A stretch of 64,000 bases of DNA, taken from contig OX485808.1 of the NCBI GenBank assembly GCA_950295325.1, positions 34,679,180-34,743,179 on the forward strand. The letters run 5' to 3'. The position numbers and the translations under genes were made by a program. The notes under the pieces are model-generated. The model had not been told where the DNA came from. It was given only the letters and a program-made list of their open reading frames with translations, and made no database searches. The DNA comes from Polytrichum commune. Taxonomy: Eukaryota > Streptophyta > Polytrichopsida > Polytrichales > Polytrichaceae. Positions 19,578 to 64,000 of this stretch are shown here, piece by piece (within the stretch, counting starts at the first letter, position 1; each line of letters starts with the position of its first letter).

Positions 19578-19603
19578 CTCCATAACGTCAGTTCATTTAA
19601 AAA

Positions 19604-29890: not shown

Positions 29891-29936
29891 GTGCGGTCAA
29901 TACAATTGTCACCATTATTCTTGACGCATTTTGTAG

Positions 29937-32900
29937 ATATTGATGAAAGAGTGCCAAAGGTCTTACTTCAACTAGAGTCCAATGAATTTGAAAACTTGGG
30001 AGAAGTATCAAAGACATTGGACAAGTGGACTTCATTAAACTTGAGTGGTCGATTGTATGTGACGAAATTACGGGAGACATTGGGCAACTTGATTTCATTG
30101 GTTACATTGAACTTGAGAGAATGCAAAAATTTGGAGGAATTACCAAGGACATTGGGCAACTTAACTTCATTGGTGACATTGGACTTGAGTGCTTGCTCGA
30201 GCTTGAAGGAAGTACCGGAAACATTGGGCAACTTGACTTCATTGGTGACATTGGACTTGAGTGCTTGCTCGAGCTTAAAGGAAGTACCAGAGACATTGGG
30301 CAACTTGACTTCATTGGTGACATTGGACTTGAGTGAATGCAAAAATTTGGAGGAATTACCGAAGACATTGGGCAACTTGACTTCATTGGTGACATTGTAC
30401 TTGAGTGGTTGCTTGAGCTTGAAGGAAGTACCGGAGACATTGGGCAACTTGACTTCATTGGTGACATTGTACTTGAGTGCTTGCTCGAGCTTGAAGGAAG
30501 TACCGGAGACATTGGGCAACTTGACTTCATTGGTGACATTGGACTTAGGTGAATGCAATAATTTGAAGGAATTACCGGAGACATTGGGCAACTTGACTTC
30601 ATTGGTGACATTGGACTTAGGTGAATGCGAAAATTTGGAGGAATTACCGGAGACATTGGGCAACTTGACTTCATTGGTGACATTGGACTTGAGTGAATGC
30701 AAAAATTTGGAGGAATTACCGAAGACATTGGGCAACTTGACTTCATTGGTGACATTGTACTTGAGTGCTTGCTCGAGCTTGAAGGAAGTACCGGAGACAT
30801 TGGGCAACTCGACTTCATTGCTGACATTGGACTTAGGTGAATGCAATAATTTGAAGGAATTACCGAAGACATTGGGCAACTTGACTTCATTGGTTACATT
30901 GAACTTGTTTCATTGCGAGAGCTTGAAGGAAGTACCGAAGACATTGGACAACTTGACTTCATTGGTGACATTGGACTTGAGTGAATGCGAAAATTTGGAG
31001 GAATTACCGGAGACATTGGGCAACTTGACTTCATTGGTGACATTGTCCTTGAGTGCTTGCTCGAGCTTGAAGGAAGTACCGGAGACATTGGGCAACTTGA
31101 CTTCATTGGTGACATTGGACTTAGGTGAATGCAATAATTTGAAGGAATTACCGGAGACATTGGGCGACTTGACTTCATTGGTGACATTGTTCTTGAGTGG
31201 TTGCTCGAGCTTGAAGGAAGTACCGAAGACATTGGGCAACTTGACTTCATTGGTGACATTGTTCTTGAGTGGTTGCTCGAGCTTGAAGGAAGTACCGGAG
31301 ACATTGGGCAACTTGACTTCATTGGTGACATTGTACTTGAGTGCTTGCTCGAGCTTGAAGGAAGTACCGGAGACATTGGGCAACTCGACTTCATTGCTGA
31401 CATTGGACTTAGGTGAATGCAATAATTTGAAGGAATTACCGAAGACATTGGGCAACTTGACTTCATTGGTTACATTGAACTTGTTTCATTGCGAGAGCTT
31501 GAAGGAAGTACCGAAGACATTGGACAACTTGACTTCATTGGTGACATTGGACTTGAGTGAATGCGAAAATTTGGAGGAATTACCGGAGACATTGGGCAAC
31601 TTGACTTCATTGGTGACATTGTCCTTGAGTGCTTGCTCGAGCTTGAAGGAAGTACCGGAGACATTGGGCAACTTGACTTCATTGGTGACATTGGACTTAG
31701 GTGAATGCAATAATTTGAAGGAATTACCGGAGACATTGGGCGACTTGACTTCATTGGTGACATTATTCTTGAGTGGTTGCTCGAGCTTGAAGGAAGTACC
31801 GAAGACATTGGGCAACTTGACTTCATTGGTGACATTGTTCTTGAGTGGTTGCTCGAGCTTGAAGGAAGTACCGGAGACATTGGGCAACTTGACTTCATTG
31901 GTTACATTGAACTTGTTTCATTGCGATAGCTTGAAGGAAGTACCGAAGACATTGGGCAACTTGACTTCATTGGTGACATTGTTCTTGAGTGGTTGCTCGA
32001 GCTTGAAGGAAGTACCGGAGACATTGGGCAACTTGACTTCATTGGTGACATTGGACTTGAGTGGTTGCTTGAGCTTGAAGGAAGTACCGGAGACATTGGG
32101 CAACTTGACTTCATTGGTGACATTGTACTTGAGTGCTTGCTCGAGCTTGAAGGAAGTACCGGAAACATTGGGCAACTTGACTTCATTGGTGACATTGGAC
32201 TTAGGTGAATGCAATAATTTGAAGGAATTACCGGAGACATTGGGCAACTTGACTTCATTGGTGACATTGTTCTTGAATGGTTGCTCGAGCTTGAAGGAAG
32301 TACCGGAGACATTGGGCAACTTGACTTCATTGGTTACATTGAACTTGTTTCATTGCGATAGCTTGAAGGAAGTACCGAAGACATTGGGCAACTTGACTTC
32401 ATTGGTGACATTGTTCTTGAGTGGTTGCTCGAGCTTGAAGGAAGTACCGGAGACATTGGGCAACTTGACTTCATTGGTGACATTGGACTTGAGTGGTTGC
32501 TTGAGCTTGAAGGAAGTACCGGAGACATTGGGCAACTTGACTTCATTGGTGACATTGTACTTGAGTGCTTGCTCGAGCTTGAAGGAAGTACCGGAAACAT
32601 TGGGCAACTTGACTTCATTGGTGACATTGGACTTAGGTGAATGCAATAATTTGAAGGAATTACCGGAGACATTGGGCAACTTGACTTCATTGGTGACATT
32701 GTTCTTGAGTGGTTGCTCGAGCTTGAAAGAAGTACCGGAGATATTGGGCAACTTGACTTCATTGGTGACATTGGACTTAAGTGAATTGAATAATTTGAAG
32801 GAATTACCGGAGACATTGGGCAACTTGACTTCATTGGTGACATTGGACTTAGGTGAATGCAAAAATTTGGAGGAATTACCGGAGACATTGGGCAACTTGA

Positions 32901-33880
32901 CTTCATTGGTGACATTGTCCTTGAGTGGTTGCTCGAGCTTGAAGGAAGTACCGGAAACATTGGGCAACTTGACTTCATTGGTGACATTGTCCTTGAGTGG
33001 TTGCTCGAGCTTGAAGGAAGTACCGGAGACACTGGGCAACTTGACTTCATTGGTGACATTGGACTTAGGTGAATGCAATAATTTGGAGGAATTACCGGAG
33101 ACATTGGGCAACTTGACTTCATTGGTGACATTGTCCTTGAGTGGTTGCTCGAGCTTGAAGGAAGTACCGGAAACATTGGGCAACTTGACTTCATTGGTGA
33201 CATTGTCCTTGAGTGGTTGCTCGAGCTTGAAGGAAGTACCGGAGACACTGGGCAACTTGACTTCATTGGTGACATTGGACTTAGGTGAATGCAATAATTT
33301 GAAGGAATTACCGGAGACATTGGGCAACTTGACGTCATTGGTGACATTGTTCTTGAGTGGTTGCTCGAGTTTGAAGGAGGTACCGGAGACATTAGGCAAC
33401 TTGACTTCATTGGTGACATTGGACTTAAGTGAATGCAATAATTTGAAGGAATTACCGGAGACATTGGGCAACTTGACTTCATTGGTGACATTGTTTTTGA
33501 GTGGTTGCTCGAGCTTGAAGGAAGTACCGGAGACATTGGGCAACTTGACTTCATTGGTGACATTGGACTTGAGTGAATGCAATAATTTGAAGGAATTACC
33601 GGAGACATTGGGCAACTTGACTTCATTGGTGACATTGTTCTTGAGTGGTTGCTCGAGCTTGAAGGAAGTACTGGAGACATTGGGCAACTTGACTTGATTG
33701 GTGACATTGGACTTAAGTGAATGCTCGAGCTTGAAGGAAGTACCGGAGACATTGGGCAACTTGACTTCATTGGTGACATTGGACTTGAGTGGTTGCTTGA
33801 GCTTGAAGGAAGTACCGGAGACATTGGGCAACTTGACTTCATTGGTTATATCGGGTTCGAGTTATTGTGAGAATCCGAAG
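29937..33880 (+). pseudogene. Leucine-rich-repeat exon with about 52 near-identical repeats and one stop
   Basis: One frame encodes about 52 tandem 24-residue LRRs of the form L-G-N-L-T-S-L-V-T-L-x-L-S-x-C-x-x-L-K-E-V-P-E-T. This is the plant-type LxxLxLxxCxxLxxLP class seen in immune-receptor-like proteins and in large moss/liverwort LRR families. The period is 72 bp throughout with very little drift. The frame has no ATG, so the exon probably starts at an acceptor (TTTTGTAG, ending 29936) and needs an upstream exon that I could not find. TGA at 33695-33697 replaces a TCA serine found in nearly every other unit. Beyond it two more LRRs and a CENPK tail lead to a GT donor at 33881. No TIR, NB-ARC, kinase or membrane segment is visible, so the role is unknown. 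It would bind a partner through the solenoid if made. Confidence 0.75.
30060..33850. repeat. 72-bp tandem array with nested block duplications
   Basis: Above the 72-bp unit, larger blocks repeat. One block of 8 units (576 bp) is marked by the rare GGGCAACTCGACTTCATTGC variant at 30802 and 31378. One of 6 units (432 bp) is marked by GTTACATTGAACTTGTTTCA at 31901 and 32333. One of 3 units (216 bp) is marked by GAGACACTGGGCAAC near 33027 and 33243. These are multiples of 72 and imply successive unequal exchanges. Confidence 0.85.
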
Positions 33881-43031: not shown

Positions 43032-44375
43032 GGAGAAAGAATTTTGTTGAGCATTCTACTCAGCTTTACACATGGACTACTTAGCACCCAAAGGTCAAAC
43101 ACTATATTAAACATTTTGGGACTTTAGCACAATTCTGGGACTAATATGAAGATAGTGGGGAACTCATTGGGAACATATAGGGAACACATAGGGAACACAC
43201 CAGTGGGGGAAAGGTCGTATGCGAGCAAAGAGCGGAGAGCGGAGAGCAGAAAGTAGAGGATGAAGAGCATAAATTAGACATTTGGAATGCCATTTTAAGG
43301 TGAATCAACTCCTATAACCGTGGAATTTTTTGACAACTTTATTACTAATTTAAACTTTTGATATGTATAACTGTGGATTTTCAATCTAAAAATATAGTCT
43401 TTGTACATGTTTCCACCGCTTTGGTTTAGGGTGTAGGGTTCATCACAATTTCCATGCATCAATTAGGGCTGACGTCATGATGAGGTCAAAGTTCAAGAGC
43501 CGCGCATCGGCCTTCACTTATCTATCTCAATATCTTTTATCCATTTTCCTTTTAAGAATCGAAATTTATGTGATTGTTCATTTGTCACTAATCTCTTTTA
43601 TTTATTCACTAAATGGTTAACATCCATACCCAATCAATCTTAAATTATTTTTTATTAACATTAAAGACTTCTCAAAGACTTATTATCTTCTATGTTCAAT
43701 TTTTTTTTATTAACATTTTTTTAAATTTATCCCTTATAGAATCCTAATTCTTTTGGTTGTTCAATTGTGAATCATCCCTTCTATTCATCAACAATTTTGT
43801 TAACATTTATGCCCTACCATCTTTAATTTTAGTTTTCCTCACTTCTCAGTCTTAAAGACTTGTTACCTTCAATTTTTTTTTCTTATCGTTTTTTTCCATT
43901 TTCCATTTCTAATTTTAAATTTTTTTAATCCATTGTCCATTGTTTATTTTTATTTTTACATTCTTGATTTTTGTTCAAATTTTTTTCCTTTTGAGAAAAC
44001 TCATTTTTGGGTTGTTTATTTGCCAATGATCTCTTCTAATGATTAACTCTTTGGATAACATCAATGCCCTATCTATCTTAATTTTCATTTTTCTCTCTTA
44101 TGATTTCTCAAAGACTTCTACTCTTCAATTTTTTGTAGCTTATTTTCATTTTTATAGCCATACTAACTTTTTCTAATTTCTCTCAAAAACATATAACTCA
44201 TGCATGTTTCATGCGAGGGTTTAGGGTATGTATGTACCATAGGCAAAGATTGATTATAGTTGTAATTCAGTGGTAAAAATGAGATTACCACAGTTTGAAA
44301 ACATAAAAGTAGCCATTACAATGGCTCTCCAAATTGGAGATATGATTGACTGGTTGAGAAAAACAAAACTGAGGT
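43032..44375. other. AT-rich spacer with degenerate tandem repeat
   Basis: 43545-44160 holds three diverged copies of a 200-240-bp unit. Each has a T-rich lead, a 'TTATTCACTAA / TATTCATCAAC' block, 'AACATC(C)AT(A/G)CCC', 'TCTTAA', and a 'TCTCAAAGACTT' block. No gene seen. Confidence 0.5.
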
Positions 44376-47300
44376 CTATTCACTAATAGCCTCATCATCC
44401 ATATAAATCAAACCGTTACCAACAAAGCTAGTGGATAGAGAAATAGAACCACCAACACAATCACTAGGGCTGGCTTGAATGTCAGTCAAGCCAATCTCAA
44501 AATCAACATCTGCATCAACATCTAAGAATTTCAAAACACGAGGGTTATACTTCGGAGAGGCATTTGACTGGAGAGATGAAGATGCTTGTAGTGCTTGCAG
44601 CTTAGCAATTTCTTCTGCATACGAAGGGAGTCTCCAACTCTTAGTTGGACTAGGATAGTCTCTGCAATATTGCAACATTTTAAAGAGTTTAGGCACAAGT
44701 GATATCATGGTTCTAAAAAAACTATGAATATTGACCAATGAAATAGAAAGAGTAAGCGGTACTTACTTACTCAGAGTCCTCAACACGACGCCGCTTCACT
44801 GCAGCAACCTTCTTTGGTTTCTTTGCAACTGGCACATGGGCTTGAGGAGGTGGAGGAGGTGGAGGTGGTGGAGCAATAGACATCATAGGCTGAAGAACAG
44901 CCCCAAACAACTTCTTGTCACTCTCCAGGCCCAGTACGTGCCTGCCAGTACTCTTGCAAGCACGAATAGAATTGCCTACAAAGAAATCAACAATTTGTAA
45001 TAAGTACCATATTCACAAAGTGATTAGTTTGAATTCAGATCAAGGACATCAATGAAGTGAAATTCATACCAGTGGCAGCTGCAACATCAATAACCAAGCC
45101 CCCGACTGTGGTTAGAGCCATAATGAGGCATGAAAAGAAGTACTCATCCTTCTCTCTTGGGCCTCTCCACGGTCGAGCACCATCCACGAGTGGATTGGTG
45201 CAGAAATTAATCAATGTGTCGTTGAGGCCAACGTCCACACCCTGTGCCACCAACTCAGGTACATAACGAATGGAAAATGTAGAAGTCCAAGACACGGAGT
45301 CCTCGGGCCGCGAAACCCGCTTGAGAAGAAAGATATTGAATTTGTTCGTGGTGGTATTGGGAATCCTTGCCGAGCTAATGGGCAAGAAATTGACCCCCAT
45401 CCACTCCTTACACACAGCAAAGCCAAAAGAATCATAAAACCTCTCAATGTCCTCAAGGAACTCTCCATTATCAAATGGGAAAAAAGTAACAAGACACCAT
45501 TATCGTGTAGAATCTCATCTGCAAAATCAAACAACTCTTGCAAGTAGTCTTCACTCTTCTCATTCCAAGTGGGTACTACTGATGATGGCACCGAGATAGT
45601 TGGAACTGGCAGACCTTCCGGTAAGTCTGCAATTACCAAGTCAGCTGCTCCACGCAATGAAGGCACGCCGTGGATTCTCCATGAGCGAGAAGGAGAGCAT
45701 GATACAACAAACTTGCGCACCTCACGAAAGAACCGCTGCTGCTTAAGAATGGAGTCGTTGATGACAAGGACTTGCGGTCTGCTCTCAGAAGAAGGATGCT
45801 GAGATAGAGAGGGAGGAGTTGGTACCTTCATATGGCTCTGAGTGAGTAGAAAGGGCTCACTATCAGCTTCGCCCATCAGAGTGTCTTCAACTGTGGCAGA
45901 TCCAGTGGCAACCACTGAAGCAACAATTGCTCTCCTCTTCTTGGACACTCCAGTTGTTGAAGACTTCGCAGCAAGCTTCTTCTTACCAGAAGATTTCTCT
46001 CCATCCAAGGTAGGTGAAACTTCAAGAACAACAATCTCTTCAACTTCTTGTGCATCATCATCATTAGGGAGATCCTGTGTGACAGTTAAGGATTTATTGA
46101 TCTCAGACTCTGAGTTAGGCACAAAGCCCTTAGGACATTCAATGTACCAACAACATTCAATGAGATGCTCTCTACTAAAGTTCTTCTTCTGTGCCTTTGA
46201 GAAGATGAAGGTCGGTGAAGAAGAATCGCACCACCCTTGCACACAAGGAGGTAGCTTCCGAATTGCCCCAACTTTAAAAAGAACGTGCTTCATATACCTT
46301 CAAAATTCAGCAAAAGACACTAGATGAGATTGGTAAAAAATCATGAATGAGCAAGGCACACATAACATCACACTAAAGCAAAACCGCAAACAGCCATCGG
46401 CATTGAAAAAGAATAAAATGTAATGAAATAAATAAATAACTAACTCATACTTGAGGCAAAGCCGCTTCACAAGAAGATCCCCATCCTTGACTTTATCAAA
46501 ACAAGGGATTTATTGTGTGCATCAGAACCATATAAGAAGGAGTTAAATGCCTTGTCCCAAAGGCAAATCCGCCAAGTGTCAATGTAGTCCTCAAGACTCT
46601 CTACATCCTTGGACTTATCAACCCCACCCACTAGTGCTATGTAACCAACAAGCTCTTGAGTGGCACTCTCCTCTATCCCTGCCCAAAGAGCAGCACGGTC
46701 CATCCATTTCTTGAGCGTGTCCTCACCAGCAGGGTATTTTGGAAACCTGAGGTCCTTTCGAACAGTTTTTGAACTGTTCCACCACTTGAGCCAACGCACT
46801 TTGTACTTGGGCTCAACTACTGCAGTTGCCACCATCTGCAGTTTTTCTAGTGACATCTCAACTTTGGTAGCAACGTGTGCACTATAATGCGCAATAACCT
46901 GCATGTCCAAGGAAGTAATGCATCAACAGAGGCAGAGCTAAGGTCTTGAGTCGAAATCAAAATCCAATTAAAATTCACTCACCTCTTCCATGAAGCCCTC
47001 CCCTACGGCTGGATTAGCAACTGATTGGGCTTTGTTGAAGTAGGTAAATAACTCCTCCCTCTTCTTAGCAATAGCCTTGTCAACATATTCCTGGAGTCCC
47101 GAATCGTTATGCATGCTTTCATCCACCTCTTCCAAGTATAATTGCCCAGCCTCACTACCCACTTGGACTATGTCATCCTGAAGAATGAAGCAAAAAATCA
47201 ACACTAAACTCTCAAATCAAATGATTGCGGATAAGGGAAAAACCAGAAAGAATTGAGATCCTTACACTGAAGATGAAGTTGACCATCAAATCTCTAGTAA

Positions 47301-48426
47301 GTGGGTACCACGTCTTCTTTGACTTCGTGAGGCATGATTTGATTTGCTCCGGAGTAAGCAGGGCTTGAAGTACGCAATGTCATACGATCCGTATTTCCAA
47401 ATACGGTGAAGAGTATGAACTAAGCTAGTCTTCACATGTGCCGTTTGATTGGACCTGCACAATTGGCATATCAGATTGCATAAATTGTGAAGCGCCAAAT
47501 AAGAGGAATAAAAACAATATGAGATCAATAAGAAAGTACCTGTTGATATCGTGCATGGCAGTGAGGATATCTCCACGACCTCCAACGGTGTCAAGTACAA
47601 CGTATTCGGGATTACCATTCTTTGAAACCCAATGTTGATCTTCAGCATGAAGAGTTTCAATCACCTCATTCCAAGCTAAGAGCCTATGGTTACCATCATA
47701 AACAAAGAACATTGAGCCACTCAACCCCACGAGGTCAGGATCTGATTTCAAGCAGTTTTCGAATGTATCATTTTCTTGAATCCAGCAAAGGCTCCATTGT
47801 TGTACATCCTCTTGAGTGACAACCCTTATATGACCCTCGTCATCCGTCACGGACACATAAATAACACCTGAATGGGGCTTGTATCCATACTGAAACGCTC
47901 CCATCAATTTAATAACATCACATCGAAGTGTAGGTCTAACCATGGGCATGTGAACCATCCTACACAATGGAATTCGAAGGACTGCTTTTGAGACGGGTTG
48001 CCGCCTCATACTTTTGATTACCTCATACATATTGCCATGGAGCAATGTGACTTGCACATTGTTCCCAACCTTCGTCAGGCCCTTAACTTGCCTTCGAGCA
48101 CGCTCCATAGGTGACTCAAAATGACCTCCATCACCACTACTCTGGCCTTGACTAGAACTAGCAAGAGGATGGTGACTATGATCCCCTACCGAATCCATCC
48201 CAAGCAAAGGCTGCGACTCATCCCCGTCGTCGCGATCTCCACTCTCACTGGACTCAGACTGAGGAATGCGCCGTACCCTTCCATTTCCCTTCCTTGGTGC
48301 AATGCCTACATCAGGCGATCCGTGCGTAACCTCCAAGTCCATGGCTCCTCTACAAAGACTCCCCGAAACGCTTGTTGATGACCCTCCAGTTGCAACCTCC
48401 ACACCTTCACTCACAATCGACATCAT
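44376..48426 (-). pseudogene. ParB-like plus beta-class DNA amino-methyltransferase-like gene, 7 exons
   Basis: The exon model on the minus strand is 48426-47540, 47454-47266, 47177-46983, 46898-46451, 46297-45070, 44975-44771 and 44661-44376, all with GT-AG borders and matching phases, about 1147 codons. The start is ATG ATG at 48426, just inside a possible acceptor (TTTTGTGCAG), so a 5' non-coding exon is likely. Residues about 120-290 resemble ParB/Srx folds (FVYDGNHRLLAW near 241). The C-terminal half resembles N4-cytosine/N6-adenine methyltransferases in beta order. Motif IV is DLVIADLPEG near 793, where active enzymes have (D/N)PP(Y/F). The target-side region ends in RPWRGPREKDEYF. Motif I is VIDVAAATGNS near 975, then GRHVLGLESDKKLF. 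A proline run and KKPKKVAAVKRRR, a likely nuclear signal, follow. Three single-base deletions break the frame near 47370, 46500 and 45480. ParB-methylase fusions are known in bacteria and phages, so transfer is plausible. The altered motif IV suggests loss of catalysis. Confidence 0.7.
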
Positions 48427-48539: not shown

Positions 48540-49500
48540 AACACCCTTTAGAAACCCTCCATTAGACTAAAACTTGGTGGCCTCATGTCGCAAAAACTAA
48601 AAAAACAATGATCTTGAGGTGGTAGTCTGTCGCGCACCTCTCCCGGACTGCGAAATTTTCAACAACAATAACTTCCTCAATACTCGCCTGAATGGGGCAA
48701 ATGATGTGTCCATCCTAATCTACGTGAAACGTACATGCCAATAGAGTGGTCATATATGAGCATCAGACATCAAACCTGACAGTTATGGACGTTTGAAGCT
48801 GCTAGGGGCTTCTAGCTCTGCATCCGGATGTGGTGGTCGGACCCGACCACCACCTTTCACCACCCTCTAGAAACACTCCCCTAGACTCATATTCAGAGGC
48901 CTCACATCGCAAGAACATCAAAACAAAAGAGAATCCAAAGGTGGAGGTCTGTCACGCACCTCTCCCGGACTGCGAAGCTTTCAACAATGATAACTTCCTC
49001 AATACTTGCCTGAATGGGGCAAGTGGGGTGTCCATCCTGATCTACGTGAAATGTACATGCGGATAGAGTGGTCATATGTGAGCATCATACATCAAACCTG
49101 AAAGTTATGGACGTCTGAAACTGCTAGGGGCTTCTAGCTCTGCATCCGGTGTGGTGGTCGGACCCGACCACCTCTTTTCACCACCCTCTAGAATCACTCC
49201 CCTAGACTCATATTCAGAGGCCTCACATCGCAAGAACATCAAAACAAAAGAGAATCCAAAGGTGGAGGCCTGTCACGCACCTCTCCCGGACTGCGAAGCT
49301 TTCAACAAGGATAACTTCCTCAATACTTACATGAATGGGGCAAGTGAGGTATCCATCCTGATCTACGTGAAACGTAGATGCTGATAGAGTGGTCATATAT
49401 GCATATCAGACATCAAACCTAAAAGTTATGGATGTCTGAAGCTGCTGGGGGCTTCTAGCTCTGCATCCGGATGTGGTGGTCAGACCCGACCACTACCTTT
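48540..49500. repeat. 321-bp tandem repeat, three copies, built from satellite plus LTR pieces
   Basis: Copies start near 48540, 48860 and 49181, with a partial at 49500. Each begins with the satellite-type block (dyad GTGGTCGGACCCGACCAC then CACC...CTAGAAAC), followed by CTGTC(G/A)CGCACCTCTCCCGG and a stretch (CCTGAATGGGGCAA, ATCTACGTGAAACGTA, GGGGCTTCTAGC). That stretch is an inverted, internally deleted match to the solo-LTR-like element at 51452-52427. Confidence 0.75.
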
Positions 49501-49559
49501 CACCACCTTTCACCACCTTTCACCACCCTTAAGAAACCCTGCCCTATACTCATACTCCG

Positions 49560-50540
49560 AGGCCTCACACCGCAAAAACTTCCAAAAATATATATCAAAA
49601 GGTGGTGGTCGGACCCGACAATTAATATCCACACCCTCTACGAACAACGAAATTGATTCCAAGTTGGTGGCCTCACATTGCAAACACTTAAAAAAAAAAA
49701 AATCCAGAGGTGGTGATCGGACCCAACCACCACCATCCACACATTTTACGAACAGTGAATTTGACTTCGACTTGGTGACTCACTTCGCAAACACTTTAAA
49801 AAAAAAATCCAGAGGTAGTGGTCGGACCCGACCACCACCATCACACATTTTACAAACCGTGAACTTGACTCCGACTCGGTGGCCTGACTTTACGAACACT
49901 TCTAAAAAAAATCCAGAGATGGTGGTCGGACCCGACCACCACCATCCACACCCTTTACGAACCGTGGAATTGACTTCCATATGGTGGCCTCACATTACAA
50001 GCACTTCAAAAAAAGAAAAAAAATCCAGAGGTGGTTGTCGGACCCGACCACCACCACCACACCCTTTACGAACCGTGAAATTGATTTATGCTTGGTGGCC
50101 TCACTTCGCAAACACTTCAAAAGAAAGGATCCAGAGGTGGTGGTCGGACCCGACCACCACCATCACATCCTTTACGAACTGTGAAATTGACTCTCACTTG
50201 ATGGCCTTACATTGCAAACACTTCAAAAAAATAATGATCCAGAGGTGTTGGTCGGACCCGACCACCACTATCCACACCCTTTACAAACCGTGAAATTGAC
50301 TCAGACTCAGTGGCCTCACTTCGCAAACACTTTTACAAAGAAGATCCAGAGGTGGTGGTTGGACACGATACCACCATCACACCTTTTACGAACTGTGAAA
50401 TTGACCTTCACATGGTGGCCTGACATTGCAAACACTTTAAAAAAAAGATCCAGAGGTGGTGGTCGGACCCGACCACCACTATCATATCCTTTACTAACCG
50501 TGAAATTGATTTAGATTTGGTAGACTCTCTTCGCAAACAC
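49560..50540. repeat. 105-bp satellite with internal dyad, left block
   Basis: About nine units at 104-112-bp spacing (TCCAGAGG at 49703, 49808, 49912, 50024, 50130 and on). The order within a unit is GTGGTGGTCGG-AC-CCGACCACCAC dyad, CACCCTTTACGAACCGTGAA, (A)TTGACT, GGTGGCCTCAC, (T)TCGCAAACACTT, and an A-run. The translated frames around it are repeats of the unit, not genes. Confidence 0.85.
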
Positions 50541-52427: not shown

Positions 52428-53008
52428 GGAGCGGACAGAGGGGGGGGAAAATTTTTTTTTTAAAAAAATGGGGCGGACGGGGAAGGGAAAAAAAAAAAAA
52501 AAAAAAAACTGGGGCGGACGGGGGAGCGGACGGGGGGGAACGGAGCGGACGGGGTCAGGAACGGGGGCGGACGGGGGGGAACGGGAGCGGACAGAGGGGG
52601 GGGAAATTTTTTTTTAAAAAAAAATGGGGCGGACGGGGGAGCGGACGGGGGGGAACGGGGTCGGGAACGGAGCGTACGGGGTCAGGAACGGGGGCGGACG
52701 GGGTCGGGAACGGGGGGGAACGGGGCGTACGGGGTTGGGAACGGAGCGGACGGGGGGGGCGGACGGATTCTAGTAAATTTTTCCCCACTTTATCTTTACT
52801 TTGCTGACATGTCATCACACGTGGACATTGTAAATCCTACGTGTCCGAATTGGGTTAATGTAATTACACAAAAAAATCGGTAAAATTCAAGTCCGTCAGG
52901 ATAAAGACAGCATCCGGCATAATGTCGTGACGGATACGTGTCGTGACGACACGACATTATGCCGGGATTACCCTCCGTCACGACACAATAGACAACCCTG
53001 ACAAACAC

Positions 53009-54300
53009 TTCAAAAAAAAGGATCCAGAGGTGGTGGTCGGACCCGACCACCACCATCACACCCTTTACGAACTGTGAAATTGACTCCTACTTGGTGGCCT
53101 CACATTGCAAACACTTCAAAAAAATAATGATCCAGAGGTGTTGGTCGGACCCGACCACCACTATCCGCACCCTTTACAAACCGTGAAATTGACTCAGACT
53201 CAGTGGCCTCACTTCGCAAACACTTCAAAAAAAGGGATCCAGAGGTGGTGGTCGGACCCGCCCACCACCATCACACCCTTTACGAACCGTGAAATTGACT
53301 TCCACATGGTGGCCTTACATTACAAACATTTAAAAAAAATTGATCCAGAGGTGGTGGTCGGACTCGACCACCACCATCACACCTTTTACGAACCGTGAAC
53401 TTGACTCAGACTCGGTGGCCTCACTTTGCAAACACTTTAAAAAAAATCCAGAGATGGTTGTCGGACCCGACCACCTCCATTCACACCCTTTACGAACCAT
53501 GAAATTGACTCCAACTTGGTGCATCACTTCACAAACACTTCAAGAAAAAAGAGGATCCAGGTGTGGTTGTCGGACCCGACCACCACCATCCACATCCTTT
53601 ACGAACCGTGAAATTACCTCCCACTTAGTGGCCTCCCATTGCAAACACTTCAAAAAAATAATGATCCAGAGGTGGTGGTCGGACCCGACCACCACTATCC
53701 ACACCCTTTACGAACCATGAAATTGACTCAGACTCGGTGGCCTCACTTCGCAAACACTTCAAAAAAAAAACATCCAGAGGTGGTGGTCGGACCCGACCAC
53801 CACAATCCACATTCTTTACGAACCGTGAACTTCACTAAGACTCGGTGACATCACTTCGTGAACACTTTAAAAAAAAACTTTAGAGCTGGTTGTCGGACCC
53901 GACCACCACTATCCACACCTTTTACGAACCTTGAACTTGACTCCGATTCGGTGGCCTCACTTCGCAAATACCTCAAAAAAAATATCCAGAGATGGTGGTC
54001 GAATTCGAGCACCACCATCTACACCCTTTACGAACCGTGAAATTGACTCCAATTTGGTGCCTCACTTTGGAAATACTACAAAAAAAAGATCCAAAGGTGG
54101 TTGTCGGACCCGAACGCCACCATCCACATCCTTTACGGACCGTGAAATTGATTCCAACTTTGTGGCCTCACTTCGCAAACAATTCAAAAAAAAAGTCCAG
54201 AGGTGGTGGTCGGACCCGACCACCATCCAACACCCTTCACGAACTCTGAATATGACTCGGACTCGGTGGCCTCACTTCGCAAACACTTCCTAAAAAAATA
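53009..54300. repeat. 105-bp satellite with internal dyad, right block
   Basis: About twelve to thirteen units continuing the array at 49560-50540, evidently one array before the hAT-type insertion. The dyad is retained in most units. Some have point changes (GGACCCGAACGCC near 54107, GAATTCGAGC near 54001), so it decays toward the right edge. Confidence 0.85.
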
Positions 54301-54954
54301 TCAATAACAAAATCTTACACCTCACGTTCAGACAACATACCCTGGCTCGGTTTGAATTGTTTGGTTGTTGTCATTGTGAGCAACTCCTTTCTCTGCCGGT
54401 TTCCTGGGACCGTAATGGATGGACTTTAGTTGATTGGTTTGGCTAGCAATACATATGGCTCCAACCTAACCTAATTGGAAATTTATAATATCAAAAGAAA
54501 CATTAATTAATGATTGGGCAATCAAATACTTGACTCTCTTTGATAATACTGAAGTCCACCGATAGTTGGAGCTCGGTCTCACACTTTGAGTAGGAAAGTA
54601 AAGTAACTTCTTGTTTGACAACTTGATTTTGTACAATCTCGACTGGAAGCTTGGCAAATTGGCTCGTTAATGACTTGATAGTACCGTCCAAGTTTGCAAA
54701 CCGCATTCTATTAGTCTCTGCATTTTTCATCCTAGCACGCCTAATATGCTTTGAACTAGAGAATAGGGGTTTTTTCCTTCTCCTTCGCTTTGCGATCGAA
54801 GGTGTTACACCGTCCAATGGATACACGGCATGCATCTGAGATACTACCTCATTCACAAACTCAGCTCATCTTTCTGCAATCTGAGAGGATTTTTATTGTG
54901 TTTTGCAGCTTGTCTAAATCTCCACTACATTCCAATTTAATGTACCCCTTCAAT
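54301..54954. other. Spacer, possible coding relic
   Basis: On the minus strand 54856-54503 is open and encodes KRRRRKKPLF and a KFAKLPVE-like stretch, with an N-terminal hydrophobic start. It could be the relic of a basic nuclear or gag-like protein. No family is recognised. Confidence 0.3.
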
Positions 54955-55460
54955 CAAGGTTGTTTATTGTGTCGTGACGGAGGGTAATCCCGACATAATG
55001 TCGTGCCGTCACGACACGTATCCGTCACGACATTATGCCGGATGATGTCTTTATCCTGCCGGACTTGAATTTTACCGAATGTTTTGTATATTTACATTAC
55101 CCCATTGCGGACACGTAGGAGTTACGATGTCCACGTGTGATGACATGTCAGCAAAGTAGAGGTAAAGTGGGGAATAAAATTATTAGCGCCCGTCCGCCCT
55201 CCCGTCCGCCCCCGTTCCCCCCCGTTCCCCGTACCTTAACCCCGCTCCCTTAGCCCATTAACATGTTCCCTAACCCGTTCCCTACGTTCCCTCCCGTCCG
55301 ACCCCCCCGTCCGACCTTTTCCTGTCCGACCCTCCCACCCGACCCTCCCACCCGACCCTCCCCCCCTTCCGAGACCACCCTACCCGACCCTCCCTCCCCG
55401 TCCGACCCATCCCCCCCCCCCCCCCCCCCCCGTCCGACCCTTCCCCCCCCCCGTCCGTAC
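54955..55460. mobile_element. Truncated second copy of the G-rich hAT-type element, inverted
   Basis: The terminus CAAGGTTGTTTATTGTG followed by TCGTGACGGAGGGTAATCCC is the inverted equivalent of the right end of the element at 50541-53000, with a few mismatches. 55040-55180 matches its subterminal segment (TGCTGACATGTCATCACACG in reverse). It then runs into C-rich tracts of CGTCCG and GTTCCC repeats, and the distal terminus is missing. It ends about 25 bp upstream of the kinase-like gene's TATA box. Confidence 0.7.
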
Positions 55461-55484
55461 CTCATGATTGGGCTCCCCTCTCCC

Positions 55485-55493
55485 TATATAAAG
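55485..55493 (+). promoter_or_regulatory. TATA box of the kinase-like gene
   Basis: TATATAAAG lies in a CT-rich stretch (CTCCCC...) and is followed by a G-rich run. It is 210 bp upstream of the ATG at 55703. An inverted CCAAT motif (ATTGG) occurs at about 55467-55471. Transcription would start near 55515-55525. Confidence 0.65.
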
Positions 55494-55702
55494 CCGGGGG
55501 GGGCTTTACTTATAATCACTTTCCTCTCTTCCCACCACTTAGGGACCCGAGACCTTGTTGCGTCCCAAGGGACAGCGGCACTGCGCGGGTCTTAGTGGTT
55601 TGGGAGGTTAGGGCAAATTGTGGGGTAACCCTCGCAATTTTTTTTCCATATTCACGCACTCGTTTTTACACTCACTCACTCATTCACGTGATTTTTTTCT
55701 TG

Positions 55703-57595
55703 ATGGAGGGGGAGGCCATTGCTCCTTACCAAGACGAGGATTCAAGGCTGCACCGTGATTGGCTCCAAAGCAAGGCATCCGCGAATACTGGCGAGGGTAC
55801 ATGAAGCGATCCCGGAAGTGGAAGTACTGCAGCACGTAATCCACGTCTTGATCCTTTTCAGTTTGATGAGGAGTTCTTTGCTGTTGGTCATTCAGGAGGC
55901 AACCAAACACGGGGAAGCCGTGGAACACGTGGGAGTCGGGGAAATAGTGGACATAGAGGGAGAACATGAAGGGGACCAAGCTCAGGCAGTTCCACAGGTA
56001 TAAATGCACCCACTCGTTCGGAGAACGTGCCACCACAATCTCCGACACCGCGGACATCAAGACCGCATAGCCCTACTCGAGATGTACCTCAGGGTTCGGA
56101 GCATGATGAAAGACGGGGATTGAAACGCGCAGCAGATTCGGGAGGGATGGAGGAGGGGTCCACGGCATCAGGTTCTCAATCAAAGAAAAGGAGACATAGA
56201 GGCAAACGCGATAAACATATCGATGAGGCTCGAAACCATTGTAGGATATTGGTGTTGGAATGGTTTAGAAAGCACAGCCTCAATGATGGTACAAAGGGTT
56301 TAGAGTTGGTGAAGAACGAGTTGATTCTTCTTCTCACGGAAGGCATGGCTGGAGCTGAGTTTGAAGAAGCTAGGGGCATGAGCGATTGGGACACATGGAT
56401 TGAATCTCAAGCCAGGGAAGCAATCTACAATCCAACAATGACATATGATGCTGTGCATCCCGGTGAGGGAAGTAGTGGTGGCAGGAAGTCTGAGTTGTAC
56501 GAGAAGCTAGAGAATTGGAGAAGAGGCGTAATAAGCGCAAAAGGAACATCCGCCCGCACCCTTCCCGTTTTCATTGACAGACAAATGGCAGACAACATTG
56601 CCACTCAGGGCCGACATGGTGTCATATGGTTGCCTAGAGATGTGGAGATCAAAGCCTTGGATAAGGAAATCTTCCAAGGGTCCTACGGAGTGGTGCGGAG
56701 GGTCACAATTCATGGAGCATCATTCATCCCTAGCTGGATAGAGTGGGCTGGGAAGACCATGAAGGCCACGAATAGTTTGGAGAATCGAAAGGAACGTTCA
56801 CTTGAAGCATTGGCATGTCCTGTAGATCATCCTGGGGTAATCAAGATACAGTACATCCATGTGAAAACATACGAATCCTATTCATTGTGGTGGAATGGAG
56901 GCTCTTTGAAGCACATGAAGGTCTATGACTACCAAGTACCGGATGTCCACGAGAGCAGAATCCTTGAAGCGCCAGGGCTAGACTTTGATTCACGAAAACG
57001 CTTGGTTGTATATCGAAAGCATCGAGCTTATTTGGCATGGGCTCTAATGTGCATTGTGAATGTAATGCACAAGCAGGACGTGTTGCACAATGACCTTAAT
57101 CCCAACAATGTCATGTTGCATTTTCCACAAGACCGTGAGAACACGGTTTTCATTGGTGTGTGTGATTGGGGCATGGCATCATGGGGAGATGAGGACGCCC
57201 CCTCTAACTATGGAAAAGATTCAGTGGATGAGATGAACAAGCACAAAGCACAATACAATTGTGCTGGTCCTGAATTATTCCATGTACGAGGGCAGCGTGG
57301 AACATCGACCTCTCCAATGAGGATGGCTCGGAAATATAGGCACACATATCTCTCGGAGTCCTTCTCAGTGGGTGCTTTGGCAAAGAAGATTTATCACAAG
57401 GATTCGACTTCCCCCTTGTTTCAGCTAAATCGTGATCCAAATGGCTTGAAGATGCGGTTTGAGGTAGCATTGGATGCATTAACGAAGACCAATCCAGCGG
57501 AAAGGTCAACCGTCACACACGAAGTGAACATTTTGAAGTCGCCTCCATACAACATGGTTAACCCGACAATGTGCTTCCGAGACACTGCAAAATAG
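55703..57595 (+). pseudogene. Divergent protein-kinase-like gene, two in-frame TGA codons
   Basis: A single frame runs from ATG 55703 to TAG 57595 (631 codons) apart from TGA at 55802-55804 and 55967-55969. Both sit in ACA-TGA-AG and are consistent with CGA (Arg) to TGA change. The N-terminal part contains an RG-rich tract (TRGSRGTRGSRGNSGHRG) and a basic KKRRHRGKRDK, suggesting a nuclear or RNA-binding segment. The kinase core has a glycine-rich loop FQGSYGVV (about 325), candidate ATP-binding Lys351 (AGKTMKA), catalytic-loop HNDLNPNN (462-469; the usual K after HRDL is N) and DWG (488-490) in place of DFG. The catalytic Asp is kept, so activity is possible but atypical. No signal peptide or membrane helix is seen. 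Without the last ~520 codons being re-initiated downstream of the second TGA, no full protein can be made. Confidence 0.75.
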
Positions 57596-57658
57596 ATTTT
57601 TTTTGTTTTTTTTGCATCAATTTTGAATCATACCAATTTTGTAACCGTTGGAGATGTA

Positions 57659-57664
57659 AATAAA
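57659..57664 (+). terminator. Poly(A) signal of the kinase-like gene
   Basis: AATAAA lies 64 bp after the stop codon, with a T-rich stretch upstream (57597-57612) and a downstream T-rich region, as expected for a plant 3' end. Confidence 0.6.
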
Positions 57665-58055
57665 GCCATCAATTTTGCATACAAAACTTGTATATTATAT
57701 GAGATTTATGGATCTTAGTGCAATGTTTGTACTTCATGAAGTTTTTGCTTCATAATCGAGAAGAAGTCTATGGGAGGCTAACCAAGATTCTCGCCTCTCG
57801 TGAGGCCACGTGTTAATTGTCAACAAAATGGTACTCCCATCTTTGTAAATCTGACTCTATAAACGTTAACGGATGAAATTCAACCATAATATGGATGATA
57901 AAAACTACACATCCAGTTACATTGATTCATATTCACTCGTGATTTGTAAACTTGATATTGAATAAAGTTTTGATTGGGTGCACAATTTTATGAATGGTAT
58001 TCTCTCACAAGGACTATTCACAATTGCTTATATTTATAATTATATAATTCACAAT
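57665..58055. other. Intergenic, nothing seen
   Basis: AT-rich spacer after the kinase-like gene with no identifiable feature. Confidence 0.5.
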
Positions 58056-58373
58056 CACTATTTTTTGGAAGTTTGGACATAGTCTCGGTTTTTTGGCTCT
58101 CAAAAATTCATATGAAGTCCAAAAAATGAGTTCTTGGTATCCATGGATAGGTAATGAAGTCCTCTACATGAATATGCAATAATATTTCTACTGCCAAAAA
58201 GTATATGGTCGGAATTCTACGCTGTTCCCTTTGAATCTGCACTTTGTCACTATTTTTTGGAAGTTTGGACATAGTCTCGGTTTTTTGGCTCTAAAAAATT
58301 CATATGAAGTCCAAAAAATGAGTTCTTGGTATCCATGGATAGGTAATGAAGTCCTCTACATGAATATGCAATA
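58056..58373. repeat. Direct duplication of 126 bp, 192 bp apart
   Basis: 58056-58181 recurs at 58248-58373 almost unchanged (CACTATTTTTTGGAAGTTTG ... TACATGAATATGCAATAA). The two copies share an identical A/T-run pattern, so the event is recent. Confidence 0.8.
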
Positions 58374-58394
58374 ACAGTCCTCTACATAATAGTC

Positions 58395-58517
58395 CTCCCA
58401 TCCACTCACCCCCCCGGCTCCCTACCCCCCGTCCGGCCCCCCCGTCCGACCCCCCTATCCACCCCCGTTCCCTCCCCGCTCCCAACCGTTCCCTAGCGTT
58501 CCCCACCCCCCCCCATA
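58395..58517. repeat. C-rich tract related to the G-rich element
   Basis: CCCGTCCG, CCGTTCCC and CCGCTCCC units, the inverted form of the tract at 50812-51451. It has no recognisable element ends, so it may be a dispersed piece of the same family. Confidence 0.6.
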
Positions 58518-58985
58518 GTGTTCTATGAGATACTTTTAGAAGTCTCAAGTCTTTCTATATATAGATACTTTAAGAAGTCTCAATTATTTCTATATATAAA
58601 CTTAATTCTCATTTCTGTATGCTTGAATTACTTCTTTATTTCTTCACATGGATAAGAATCATCCAACCCTCGTCCTTCGACATCGCATTCATCTCATCAT
58701 AGTACATATATGATTATGAATTGTCAAAATAACTTGAGTTAACTAGATGTTTTGCAATCACATTTTATGGAAAAAAAAAACTATAGTTTAACTATATACA
58801 TATAACTATAGTTAACATCCACATAATGAAGTACACTAGAATAGCAATAATAACTAAGGGTGAACGTAAAGTCGTTAAAAAAAATTTCTCTTGGAACTGA
58901 GAAGTTGATGCATAGTTTCATTTTGCTTTGTGCTTGTTCATCTCAACAGAAACTGTTCATCTCAACAAGAGAAAATGTGGAGATC
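58518..58985. other. Intergenic, nothing certain
   Basis: AT-rich. 58923-58977 is a further copy of part of the foldback at 58986-59158. Confidence 0.5.
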
Positions 58986-59158
58986 TAATACCACACCCAA
59001 AATCTCTTTCAAATATACAACACAATTGTAATTTGCTTTGTGCTTGTTCATCTCAACATTTTCTCTTGTTGAGATGAACAGTTTCTGTTGAGATGAACAA
59101 GCACAAAGCAAAATACAACTGTGTTGTATATTTGAAAGAGATTTTGGGTGTGGTATTA
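58986..59158. repeat. Foldback sequence with about 73-bp arms
   Basis: TAATACCACACCC (58986) through TTCATCTCAACA (59058) is inverted at 59086-59158 with a few mismatches. The central loop holds TTTTCTCTTGTTGAGATGAACAG. A truncated copy of one arm (58923-58977) precedes it, so the segment appears to have formed by local duplication and inversion. Confidence 0.8.
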
Positions 59159-59542
59159 CAAAAGCATATGCCTTTAAGGGTTAAGTAGGTGAGGACTAGA
59201 CCATGTTCGCTAAGGTCCCCCTCAATACTTTCGATGGAATTTGGGGCCAAGGGGGAACTTTAAGGGTTGTTGTTGATAGGTGTTAGGATGTACTAAAGTC
59301 ATAGAAGTATGCAGTAATAATCGGTTGGTGAATTAAAAAAAATAAAAAATAAAAATCATAGAAGTGGTACAACATATTATACAAGTCATAACTTTATTAT
59401 TGCGACGACGGTACAAATGCCCTTTATTAATCATATACATAAACAAACCATGCAAACTCTAATATTCCACTTCATTCCGTCAACTTGACTTCCGTCATGC
59501 CAACCTCGTAGATGCTCATGGCTTCCGGCGAGGGTCCATTTT
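59159..59542. other. Intergenic, nothing seen
   Basis: Spacer with an A/T microsatellite near 59334-59360. No coding resemblance. Confidence 0.5.
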
Positions 59543-60046
59543 TTAAAGAGGATTCGGCCGAAGGAAATCAACATAGCTAATCGTTCGGTCTTTCATCCGT
59601 TCCTTCAACGGTAGCCGATGAGGCGATAATCCTCTCATCTTTATACGAATAGGCAAAGTCTTTGAAGATTCACCCGCTACCTTGACTATTTCAATGTCGA
59701 TTGAAGTCTCCTCCACATCCACATCCATGGGCTTCTCCAAAATATCCGCACACAAATCAATCAGATCATTTAGATCTCCACCCACGCATTGTGTGTTGTC
59801 CTTCTCCACCGCATCGATCTCAAAGTTGCCCGCATATCGTCGTTGGTCCTCCTCCGCCCTCATCCTCCAAGCTTGTGTAGATTGTGAGAAGGGAGTCATG
59901 ACATACTCATCACGAAATCGATCCCTAACACTTCTATCATCTCTCTCACGCTCGGGTGTTGGATTGAATGGAATATGGGGATCGTCTAAATTGTGTATCT
60001 CCTTATCGCATTCTAGACCCTCAAACATGACTCTCTCCTTTCCCAT
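59543..60046 (-). CDS. Hypothetical acidic protein, 167 residues
   Basis: A clean ATG-to-stop frame on the minus strand, more GC-rich than its surroundings. It is strongly charged: RERDDRSVRDRFRDE near the N-terminus, then DLNDLIDLCADILEKPMDVD and SIDIEIVKVAG. The second half ends with a basic stretch (LPLKERMKDR). No zinc finger, nuclease, signal peptide or membrane helix is seen. Possible identities include a transposon-associated accessory ORF or one exon of a host gene. An adjoining exon was not found. Confidence 0.4.
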   Translation of the reverse strand: MGKERVMFEGLECDKEIHNLDDPHIPFNPTPERERDDRSVRDRFRDEYVMTPFSQSTQAWRMRAEEDQRRYAGNFEIDAVEKDNTQCVGGDLNDLIDLCADILEKPMDVDVEETSIDIEIVKVAGESSKTLPIRIKMRGLSPHRLPLKERMKDRTISYVDFLRPNPL

Positions 60047-60319
60047 CCTATCCCTGATATTCTACCTTCGTTATGTGTATGAGTCTCAATGATCTACTTA
60101 TATATTGAGCTCTAAAGACTTGATGACGATGACCAATAATAGATGTAATCCAATATGTAGAGAATCCAATTCTCGTTGGTAAGATAAAGTCAACGCAATC
60201 GGAATAAAAATAAAGTTGGTTAGGTAAAAAACATACACTTTTGAAAAAGTCTTCCGACATCCGCATTGGAAACCTCTTGAATACCTCTTTGAACTTTCCA
60301 TATTTGATTAGTTATCCAC
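60047..60319. other. Spacer before the satellite
   Basis: No gene recognised. The chance minus-strand frames are short. Confidence 0.5.
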
Positions 60320-61536
60320 TCATTCAACAAGTCACTAATGTGTGCTTCAACCTTAGTGGTTCATATGGTTTCACACCAATGTCGCGCATCTGAATGCATT
60401 TTCATTCAACAAGTTACTAATTTGTGCTTCAACCTTAGTGGTTCATATGGTTTCACAACCAATGTCGCGCATCGGAATGCATTTTCATTCAACAAGTCAC
60501 TAATGTGTGCTTCAACCTTAGTGGTTCATATGGTTTGACAACCCATGTCGCGCATCCGAATGCATTTTCATTCAACAAGTCACTAATTTGTGTTTCAACC
60601 TTAGTGGTTCATATGGTTTCACAACCAATGTCGCGCATCCGAATGCATTTTCATTCAACAAGTCACTAATTTGTGTTTCAACCTTAGTGGTTCATATGGT
60701 TTCACAACCAATGTCGCGCATCCGAATGCACTTTCATTCAACAAATCACTAATTTGTGCTTCAACCTTAGTGGTTCATATGGTTTCACACCGATGTCGCG
60801 CATCCGAATGCACTTTCATTCAACAAATCACTAATTTGTGCTTCAACCTTAGGGGTTCATATGGTTTCACAACCAATGTTGCGCATCCGAATGCACTTTT
60901 ATTCAACAAATGACTAATTTGTGCTTCAACCTTAGAGGTTCAAATGGTTTCACAACCAATGTCGCGCATCCGAATGCACTTTCATTCAACAAATCACTAA
61001 TTTGTGTTTCAACCTTAGTGGTTCATAAGGTTTTACAACCAATGTCGCGCATCCGAATGCATTTTCATTCAACAAGTCACTAATGTGTGATTCAACCTTA
61101 GTGGTTCATATGGTTTCACAACCAATGTCGCGCATCCGAATGCACTTTCATTCAACAAGTCACTAATTTGTGCTTCAACCTTAGTGGTTCATATGGTTTC
61201 ACAACCAATGTCGCGCATCCGAATACACTTTCATTCAACAAATGACTAATTTGTGTTTCAACCTTAGTGGTTCATATGGTTTGACAACCCATGTCGCGCA
61301 TCCGAATGCATTTTCATTCAACAAGTCACTAATTTGTGCTTCAACCTTAGTAGTTCATATGGTTTCACAACCAATGTCGCGCATCCGAATGCACTTTCAT
61401 TAAACAAGTCACTAATTTGTGCTTCAACCTTTGTGGTTCATATGGTTTCACAACCAATGCGCGCATCCGAATGCACTTTCATTCAACAAGTCACTAATTT
61501 GTGCTTCAACCTTCGTGGTTCACATGGTTTTACAAC
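60320..61536. repeat. 83-bp satellite, about 14.6 copies
   Basis: Unit boundaries at 60321, 60403, 60486 and 60569 give an 82-83-bp period. The unit contains CATTCAACAAGTCACTAAT, TGTGCTTCAACCTTAGTGG, TTCATATGGTTTCACAACC and AATGTCGCGCATCCGAATGC. Copies differ by single changes. It is interrupted by the insertion at 61537 and resumes at 63794. Confidence 0.9.
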
Positions 61537-63793: not shown

Positions 63794-63798
63794 ACAAC

Positions 63799-63890
63799 CA
63801 ATGTCGCGCATCCGAATGCATTTTCATTCAACAAGTCACTAATTTGTGCTTCAACCTTAGTGGTTCATATGGTTTCACAACCAATGTATT
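63799..63890. repeat. 83-bp satellite, distal remnant
   Basis: One unit plus a few bases resume immediately after the ACAAC duplication, confirming that the satellite was continuous before the insertion. It ends at AACCAATGTATTTTCAG. Confidence 0.9.
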
Positions 63891-64000
63891 TTCAGATATA
63901 ACAACTTAATAGATACATGTTACTTATTTTCTTAGTAGTGGTACAATGCTTTTGCTTGAGTATCTCAGATCGAAGCTAGGATATGCATGCATGGTGTAAA

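Follow-up and report, generated by a model that had tools for sequence, protein, structure and literature searches.

A giant moss DNA transposon with a methyltransferase-like accessory gene and palindromic tandem arrays that differ between its subfamilies

Transposon proteins that combine a ParB-like region with a DNA methyltransferase are known from algae: the excerpted text of PMC12477816 describes the Ectocarpus element Sola1-1_Ec32, a 21.5-kb Sola1 element with a ParB-methyltransferase protein of 1,104 amino acids (aa), and refers to such proteins from green and red algae. Short target motifs in transposons are in turn exemplified by the VANC anti-silencing proteins of Arabidopsis VANDAL elements, for which the excerpted text of PMC5735166 gives the motif YAGTATTAY in non-coding tandem repeats. 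Here we analyzed a stretch of 64,000 nucleotides from Polytrichum commune (OX485808.1, 34,679,180 to 34,743,179; hereafter the window), in which a multi-exon gene at 44376-48426 on the minus strand had been predicted to join a ParB-like domain to a beta-class DNA methyltransferase-like fold. The original prediction considered such fusions to be known in bacteria and phages, which is correct but overlooks the algal transposon cases described in the excerpts of PMC12477816. We find it near certain that the gene is an accessory gene of a large, many-copy DNA transposon with terminal inverted repeats. Our overall explanation, to which we assign a probability of roughly 0.5, is that it encodes a transposon accessory protein that binds the element's own palindromes without methylating them, and thereby marks the element as self against silencing or aids transposition.

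Copies of the element align to one sharp end, reading ...ACCTTTCCCC or ...AACTTTCCCC. The degenerate right terminus GCTCGCATACNANCTTTCCCC is found at 100 sites in the genome and its reversed control at none, and the left terminus GGACGAGACTTGTATGTGAGCGG is found at 52 sites, 26 of them exact and 26 differing at one position, against none for its control. Within a span of 60 kb, 37 pairs of left and right termini have the expected order, compared with 5 in other arrangements; chance or nesting may account for the longest of these pairs, which reach 57 kb. An exact 10-bp target-site duplication was present in 12 of the 15 pairs tested, the window copy included (CACTGGTGTG), and absent from L005, L021 and L039, while none of 210 mismatched end pairings agreed at more than 6 of 10 positions. 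The termini are inverted relative to each other and match imperfectly over about 40 bp; in both elements tested, this match was better than all 300 random pairs. The corresponding features of the window are as follows.

43206 to 64000, minus strand: portion of the element in the window; the whole element measures 33.6 kb and extends to C6:34756016, about 12.8 kb beyond the window end
43206 to 43226, minus strand: right terminus, GCTCGCATACGACCTTTCCCC, with 43206 as its last base
43196 to 43205, plus strand: right copy of the target-site duplication (CACACCAGTG on the plus strand), exact at 10 of 10 positions; its partner lies outside the window beside the left terminus

Both the accessory gene and a transposase-like gene were found in 21 of the 37 pairs, the ParB-signature exon only in 5, the transposase only in 6 and neither in 5; these are lower bounds, the window pair being counted as ParB-only with its broken transposase unlisted. 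Since a match to the ParB exon is present in 26 of the 37 end-paired elements, the gene belongs to the element family, and a captured host gene of the Pack-MULE type was set aside. The earlier suggestion of transposon cargo is thus supported by the recurring termini, their pairing and the exact duplications. An exact right terminus lies within 15 kb of 36 of 131 ParB-exon places (random places, 0.99), most ParB-exon copies having no exact terminus nearby and hence not being tied to an element.

From end to end, the element consists of the left end, the transposase-like gene (transcribed leftward), 6 to 7 kb with tandem arrays, the accessory gene (rightward) and the right end. The assignment of the transposase relies on its location, its copy number and the SWIM-like finger, and not on a known transposase domain. 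Its first frame has 15 full-length matches of 98-100% identity, 14 of them without a stop (59 of 2,378 candidates scored), and its second frame ends in a CxC...CxH finger that scored 18.7 bits (E = 0.0012) against SWIM in L015 and 12.2 bits in L016, at a cut-off of 19.6. The divergent gene of L016 comprises open frames of 762 and 548 aa, and the transposase of the window element is represented by broken pieces beyond the window. No match to PF10551 was obtained in the transposase-like frames of L015 and L016, and hhalign against four Mutator-like element (MULE) frames of the same genome was non-significant (probability 0.1). The genome as a whole contains 142 matches to PF10551, the canonical MULE domain. 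Target-site duplications are 4 bp long in Sola1 elements and 8-11 bp long in MULEs, and the 10 bp found here lie within the latter range. Because of the 10-bp duplication and the SWIM-like finger, a Mutator-like element is our best guess, and membership is not claimed.

The accessory gene of the window has the following structure.

44376 to 48426, minus strand: ParB-motif/methyltransferase-like accessory gene of 7 exons, with three breaks of the reading frame in the window copy
47540 to 48426, minus strand: exon 1, variable N-terminus and ParB-signature region, with DGNHRLLAW at 47697-47671
47266 to 47454, minus strand: exon 2, frame break at about 47364
46983 to 47177, minus strand: exon 3
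46451 to 46898, minus strand: exon 4, frame break at about 46497-46500
45070 to 46297, minus strand: exon 5, motif IV ADLPEG at 45630-45613, first part of motif I (DVAAATG), frame broken at about 45478
44771 to 44975, minus strand: exon 6, remaining motif I region (NSIRACKSTGRHVLGLESD), proline run and basic tail
44376 to 44661, minus strand: exon 7, ending in a TAG stop

All introns are GT-AG, with AG acceptors at exons 2-7 (that of exon 7, at 44663-44662, was read from the sequence letters) and GT donors at exons 1-6. The splice phases agree across the seven exons, and the junction of exons 5 and 6 falls inside motif I (DVAAATG/NS). With at least 134 genomic matches to the exon-1 protein, and an uninterrupted frame over eight exons in a related group described below, the exon model lies beyond chance. 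The predicted seven exons with matching phases were therefore upheld in coordinates, splice sites and phases; the frame itself is broken in exons 2, 4 and 5, a feature absent from the original prediction. Relative to L005, L006 and L007, which are in frame there, a single base has been lost at each of the first two breaks, neither of which falls in a homopolymer run; the third sits in a run of T, where the frame is kept in L005 and L007 and lost in L006 as well. Judged by these alignments, the breaks look more like real decay than homopolymer error, and because there are three of them the window copy is probably defective.

The exon-1 protein has at least 134 matches in the 408-Mb genome, a lower bound obtained with 133 of 1,086 first-look candidates scored. 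Four LEAFY-domain matches occur in this genome and none in 14 control genomes, in keeping with a plant host. By identity of these matches, group A, which includes the window copy, lies at about 76-94%, group B at about 50-58% and group C at about 40-48%; an additional group D was recovered via PF01555. The group B protein is an uninterrupted chain of 1,096 aa, encoded by 8 exons with GT-AG introns, and is 48% identical to the window protein. Among the four group B copies that were spliced, L010, L011 and L012 have the terminal stop only and L009 has one extra stop. That L010-L012 are uninterrupted and differ from one another by 3-4 bases in 3,291 argues that the accessory-gene family has moved recently. 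Defects are found elsewhere among the relatives, namely another break in L005, one stop in L006, three stops in exon 1 of L007, and breaks in exons 4 and 5 together with three stops in exon 1 of L008. Pairs of group A copies gave ratios of nonsynonymous to synonymous substitution rates (dN/dS) of 0.45-0.90 (887-1,094 codons, stops skipped), and with its stops and frame breaks group A appears now to be weakly constrained. Between the group A and B proteins, dN is 0.53 with dS saturated above 4, which points to long-term constraint on the family.

These data bear on another earlier proposal, namely that the gene was transferred from bacteria and domesticated, or that it is a dead relic. The three frame breaks of the window copy, two of them outside homopolymer runs, and the weak constraint in group A speak in its favor; the at least 134 matches, the exact target-site duplications and the near-identical, uninterrupted L010-L012 refute it for the family. 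"Dead relic" hence fits the window copy but not its family, a single domesticated gene is not supported, and as a whole this explanation is very unlikely.

Upstream of the gene lies a 177-bp stretch (oriented L005, 1000-1174; oriented L009, 999-1174) at which groups A and B share about 78% identity. It recurs in L005 at the 322-bp repeat spacing; the palindrome core described below was not found there in B9.

The C-terminal half of the protein could be placed by several searches. The METHYLTRANSFERASE half of the group B protein matched PF01555 with E = 2.2e-5 and 25.0 bits, slightly below the cut-off of 26.7, and two group D frames scored above it (32.4 and 35.3 bits); the exon pieces of the window taken singly gave no PF01555 match. 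In PHROGs, methyltransferase families matched down to E = 1.3e-7 (phrog_3008), and a tblastn search of phages returned 102 records at E ≤ 1 (best E = 5e-5), of which, among the best 20, 16 are annotated as methyltransferase or methylase and one as a ParB-like nuclease. Profile searches of the PDB identified DpnA and CcrMI with E values of 1.3e-4 to 1.1e-3. Alignment by hhalign to six phage ParB-methyltransferases reached a probability of 90 (E = 1.7e-6), with DLPEN placed on DPPYN and the motif I regions aligned, so that motif IV and then motif I are both covered in this order. These comparisons agree with the predicted methyltransferase-like fold in beta-class order, and show homology of this half to N6/N4 DNA methyltransferases of the beta class, with prokaryotic and phage relatives.

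Motif IV was read in seven sequences, L013 and L075 being left out as the motif was not readable. It is ADLPEG in group A (window), ADLPEN in group B (L012) and ADLPEG in group C (L014), and at further loci VDIPYG (L056, group D), VDIPDG (L057), AEYPDG (L074) and ADIPDG (L076). The catalytic form (D/N/S)PP(Y/F/W) occurs in none of the seven, as the original prediction had noted for the window copy, and the fourth position is acidic in six. Because it is found in six of seven sequences, the acidic residue is a family trait and not the decay of a single copy. The sole non-acidic case is L056 (DIPY), which has an in-frame stop within its ParB region. The FxGxG of motif I is altered in groups A and C, with part of the motif and the following acidic residue retained. 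From these motifs, the accessory protein is likely to be a dead enzyme.

Alternatively, the protein might be an active methyltransferase whose motif IV is unusual (D-[LI]-P-[DEY]) and which methylates the palindromes, for example to N4-methylcytosine in CCG, and so marks the element as has been proposed for the algal proteins. Palindromic sites would suit such an enzyme, part of motif I with its acidic residue is kept, and given the DIPY copy of group D some members may be catalytic, a point that also counts against our own explanation. Erm and KsgA enzymes have Leu or Ile at the second motif position (NLPY, NIPY). Against an active enzyme stand the replacement of the aromatic residue by Asp or Glu in the window copy, L012, L014, L057, L074 and L076, the stop in the DIPY copy itself, and the altered FxGxG in groups A and C. 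We consider this alternative unlikely.

Scans of viral contigs with the methyltransferase and ParB-region profiles confirmed 0 of 130 and 0 of 53 pattern matches, respectively, and a scan of prokaryote genome contigs with the ParB-region profile confirmed none of 119; with only two short peptide patterns per scan, these outcomes do not demonstrate absence. They speak neither for nor against a recent transfer from one of the prokaryotes or viruses sampled.

The region between the two genes contains tandem arrays whose repeat units carry palindromes.

48627 to 49507, unstranded: 321-bp tandem repeats, consensus unit contains the palindrome GTGGTGGTCGGACCCGACCACCAC
49561 to 50540, unstranded: tandem repeats of about 105 bp, consensus unit contains the palindrome GGTGGTGGTCGGACCCGACCACCACC
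53002 to 54302, unstranded: tandem repeats of about 106 bp, likewise with the palindrome GGTGGTGGTCGGACCCGACCACCACC

The pattern GTCGGRYCCGAC is present 17 times in the window element and 22, 12, 15 and 19 times in the end-to-end elements A5, A6, B9 and B10, respectively, at an expectation of 0 (20 Markov shuffles per element), and does not occur in window bases 1-43205. In A5, A6 and B9, all palindrome sites lie between the two genes. The palindrome arms measure 8-15 bp, a length of 8 being reached by 0.75-2% of random units of 106-322 bp, and the other window arrays listed have arms of at most 6 bp. When the 106-bp and 322-bp units of A5 were compared, identity was 92% over the central 26 bp, 51% over the 12 bp flanking it on either side and 34% over the non-central part of 120 bp. 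Groups B and C have palindromes of their own with the same CGGNNCCG core as group A; in group C (L013 and L014) these take the form GTGTCTCGG-NN-CCGAGACAC, the core GTCTCGGNNCCGAGAC occurring 10 and 14 times in differing repeat units. Genome-wide, GTCGGRYCCGAC has 762 sites (reversed pattern, 19) and GTCTCGGNNCCGAGAC has 1,383 (reversed pattern, 0). Among the sites listed, which are 50 per pattern and all on contig C1, 44 and 34, respectively, are no more than 10 kb from a ParB-exon match, compared with 0.7% of random places on C1.

The arrays could also serve the transposase, or be hairpin-forming expansion products, with the methyltransferase-like protein acting otherwise, for instance as a transposase cofactor. 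Their position between both genes is ambiguous as to which protein would use them, and a neutral expansion of tandem arrays is conceivable. However, the group A palindrome is common to units that otherwise show near chance similarity, and the palindrome varies by subfamily while its core is kept, which fits a specific binder, though this could be either protein. We regard this explanation as doubtful, somewhat less so than that of an active enzyme.

We propose instead that the accessory protein would use its ParB-like part to bind those palindromes that belong to its own subfamily. Since the aromatic residue of motif IV is swapped for an acidic one in most of the sequences read, standard methylation would have been lost, and the old methyltransferase fold may be retained as a DNA clamp or scaffold. 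Coating of its own arrays by the protein would mark self DNA and counter host silencing or assist transposition, in a manner similar to VANC. Judged by the sites and motifs, the chances that the protein binds the palindromes are about even; an anti-silencing role, suggested by analogy, is tentative. The arrays resemble VANC motif arrays or parS in appearance. A parS-like transposon system, in which a ParB-type/dead methyltransferase protein acts on subfamily palindromes (arms differing, CGGNNCCG kept) and spreads to prevent silencing or join the ends, site and protein having co-diverged in groups A, B and C, is conceivable, although we would sooner bet against this specific form than for it.

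Besides the weak constraint on group A and the DIPY copy, several results weigh against the proposed role, and the first of these concern the ParB assignment. DGNHR is invariant in seven diverse aligned members, yet L056 of group D has DGNHP, so that the box is not universal. PF02195 matched neither the window exon nor the seven diverse members; searches of the ParB region in PHROGs (best E = 0.25) and with PDB profiles found nothing significant, and neither did hhalign with 4 or 20 plant sequences (12 after filtering) against six phage ParB proteins, where a non-significant match of 13 columns fell on the DGNHR box. In phages, tblastn with the ParB region gave 5 weak matches, none annotated as ParB. 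A single-sequence structure model of 165 residues had a mean predicted local distance difference test (pLDDT) score of 36, was unusable and was not used further. Thus the profile and structure-library check returned methyltransferases and no significant ParB, and the ParB domain of the original prediction, for which the DGNHR signature is the evidence, is not supported by any profile test. A ParB reading is nevertheless plausible by analogy, given that the published Ectocarpus protein, which resembles this one in size and setting, has been called ParB-like.

The arrays contribute further points of this kind. Some arrays in the same elements are free of palindromes, namely G-rich arrays in the window and A5, 61-62-bp arrays in L013 and a 62-bp array in L014, and the 225-bp array of L014, with an arm of only 6, also counts among those without such a palindrome. 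No GTCGGRYCCGAC site occurs in the fetched parts of the L056, L057, L074, L075 and L076 elements, and a scan of the L056 and L057 pieces for other palindromes found none recurring. Among the 50 sites listed for the second form, the 13 at C1:468610-471944 have none of the listed ParB exons in their vicinity, and the palindromes could be sites for the transposase or host factors. At C1:468610-471944, the 13 GTCTCGGTACCGAGAC sites are spaced at multiples of about 138 bp, perhaps representing another subfamily.

Genome-wide, PF02195 had 4 matches, all on the small contigs C10, C12 and C23 and in open frames there. PF01555 was found in C10 and C12, of which C12 carries both in 501-aa frames. These small contigs are probably bacterial contamination of the assembly.

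Comparison with L005 revealed a nested insertion of 17.07 kb in the window element, flanked by a 4-bp CAAT duplication.

54955 to 64000, unstranded: window part of the nested insertion, which reaches about 72025 in extended coordinates and is not part of the system described here

It contains a kinase-like open reading frame at 55970-57592 (Pkinase, E = 2.3e-6; APH, E = 3e-5) and, outside the window, an open reading frame at 65102-66820 that is hAT-like by eye. Kinase-like open reading frames are also found upstream of the group D gene of L056 (600-1764; C1:9657000-), with a weak tblastn match (8.8e-7) to that of the nested insertion. Going by these matches, elements of this type may carry kinase-like genes as a second accessory. 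Elsewhere in the window, a 1,283-aa open frame at 29846-33697 extends over a 72-bp tandem repeat (52.5 copies) and shows 24-residue leucine-rich repeats by eye, and a 486-aa open frame at 19578-21038 resembles by eye the RNase H end of a long interspersed nuclear element (LINE)-type element, a similar frame being present in L015 (94-1362).

Among known systems, the excerpts of PMC12477816 make Sola1-1_Ec32 similar in protein size (1,104 aa there, 1,096 here) and in its N4/N6 methyltransferase domain, with a ParB-like region there and the signature only here; both genes reside in a giant DNA transposon and are transcribed opposite to the transposase. Compared by description only, the moss element differs in its land-plant host, its 10-bp duplication, the absence of DPPY from seven sequences and its palindromic arrays. 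Phage ParB-methyltransferase fusions, for example that of Streptococcus phage Javan244, have the same succession of a ParB-type region and a methyltransferase in which motif IV precedes motif I. DPPY is present in all six of the aligned phage proteins and absent from the plant protein, and Javan244 exceeds the PF02195 cut-off whereas the plant protein does not match; the latter has several hundred additional residues and introns. According to the excerpts of PMC5735166, VANC genes likewise lie beside a transposase, with short motifs in non-coding tandem repeats that differ between relatives, a likeness that is functional and not based on sequence; YAGTATTAY is not a long palindrome, and VANC is not described in those excerpts as methyltransferase- or ParB-like. 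Fungal transposons carrying TET/JBP genes and retrotransposons carrying cytosine methyltransferases also bear DNA-modification genes, of different enzyme classes, as far as the excerpts of PMC12730594 and PMC5890265 describe them, and the excerpted text of PMC12695648 contains no mention of ParB.

The kind of protein is thus already known from the algal ParB-methyltransferase transposon proteins, as the excerpts of PMC12477816 describe them. Among the matches listed from the open-access literature, none reports such a gene from a moss or another land plant. The plant host, the element with a 10-bp duplication, the lost catalytic motif and the diverging palindromes are apparently new. To our knowledge, anti-silencing with target arrays that coevolve with the protein has been worked out only for Arabidopsis VANDAL elements. 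If our explanation is true, the moss element would be a second, unrelated system, assembled from prokaryotic parts, and sequence-specific self-recognition by transposons would have arisen more than once; its palindromes give each subfamily a predicted protein-site pair, which makes recognition directly testable.

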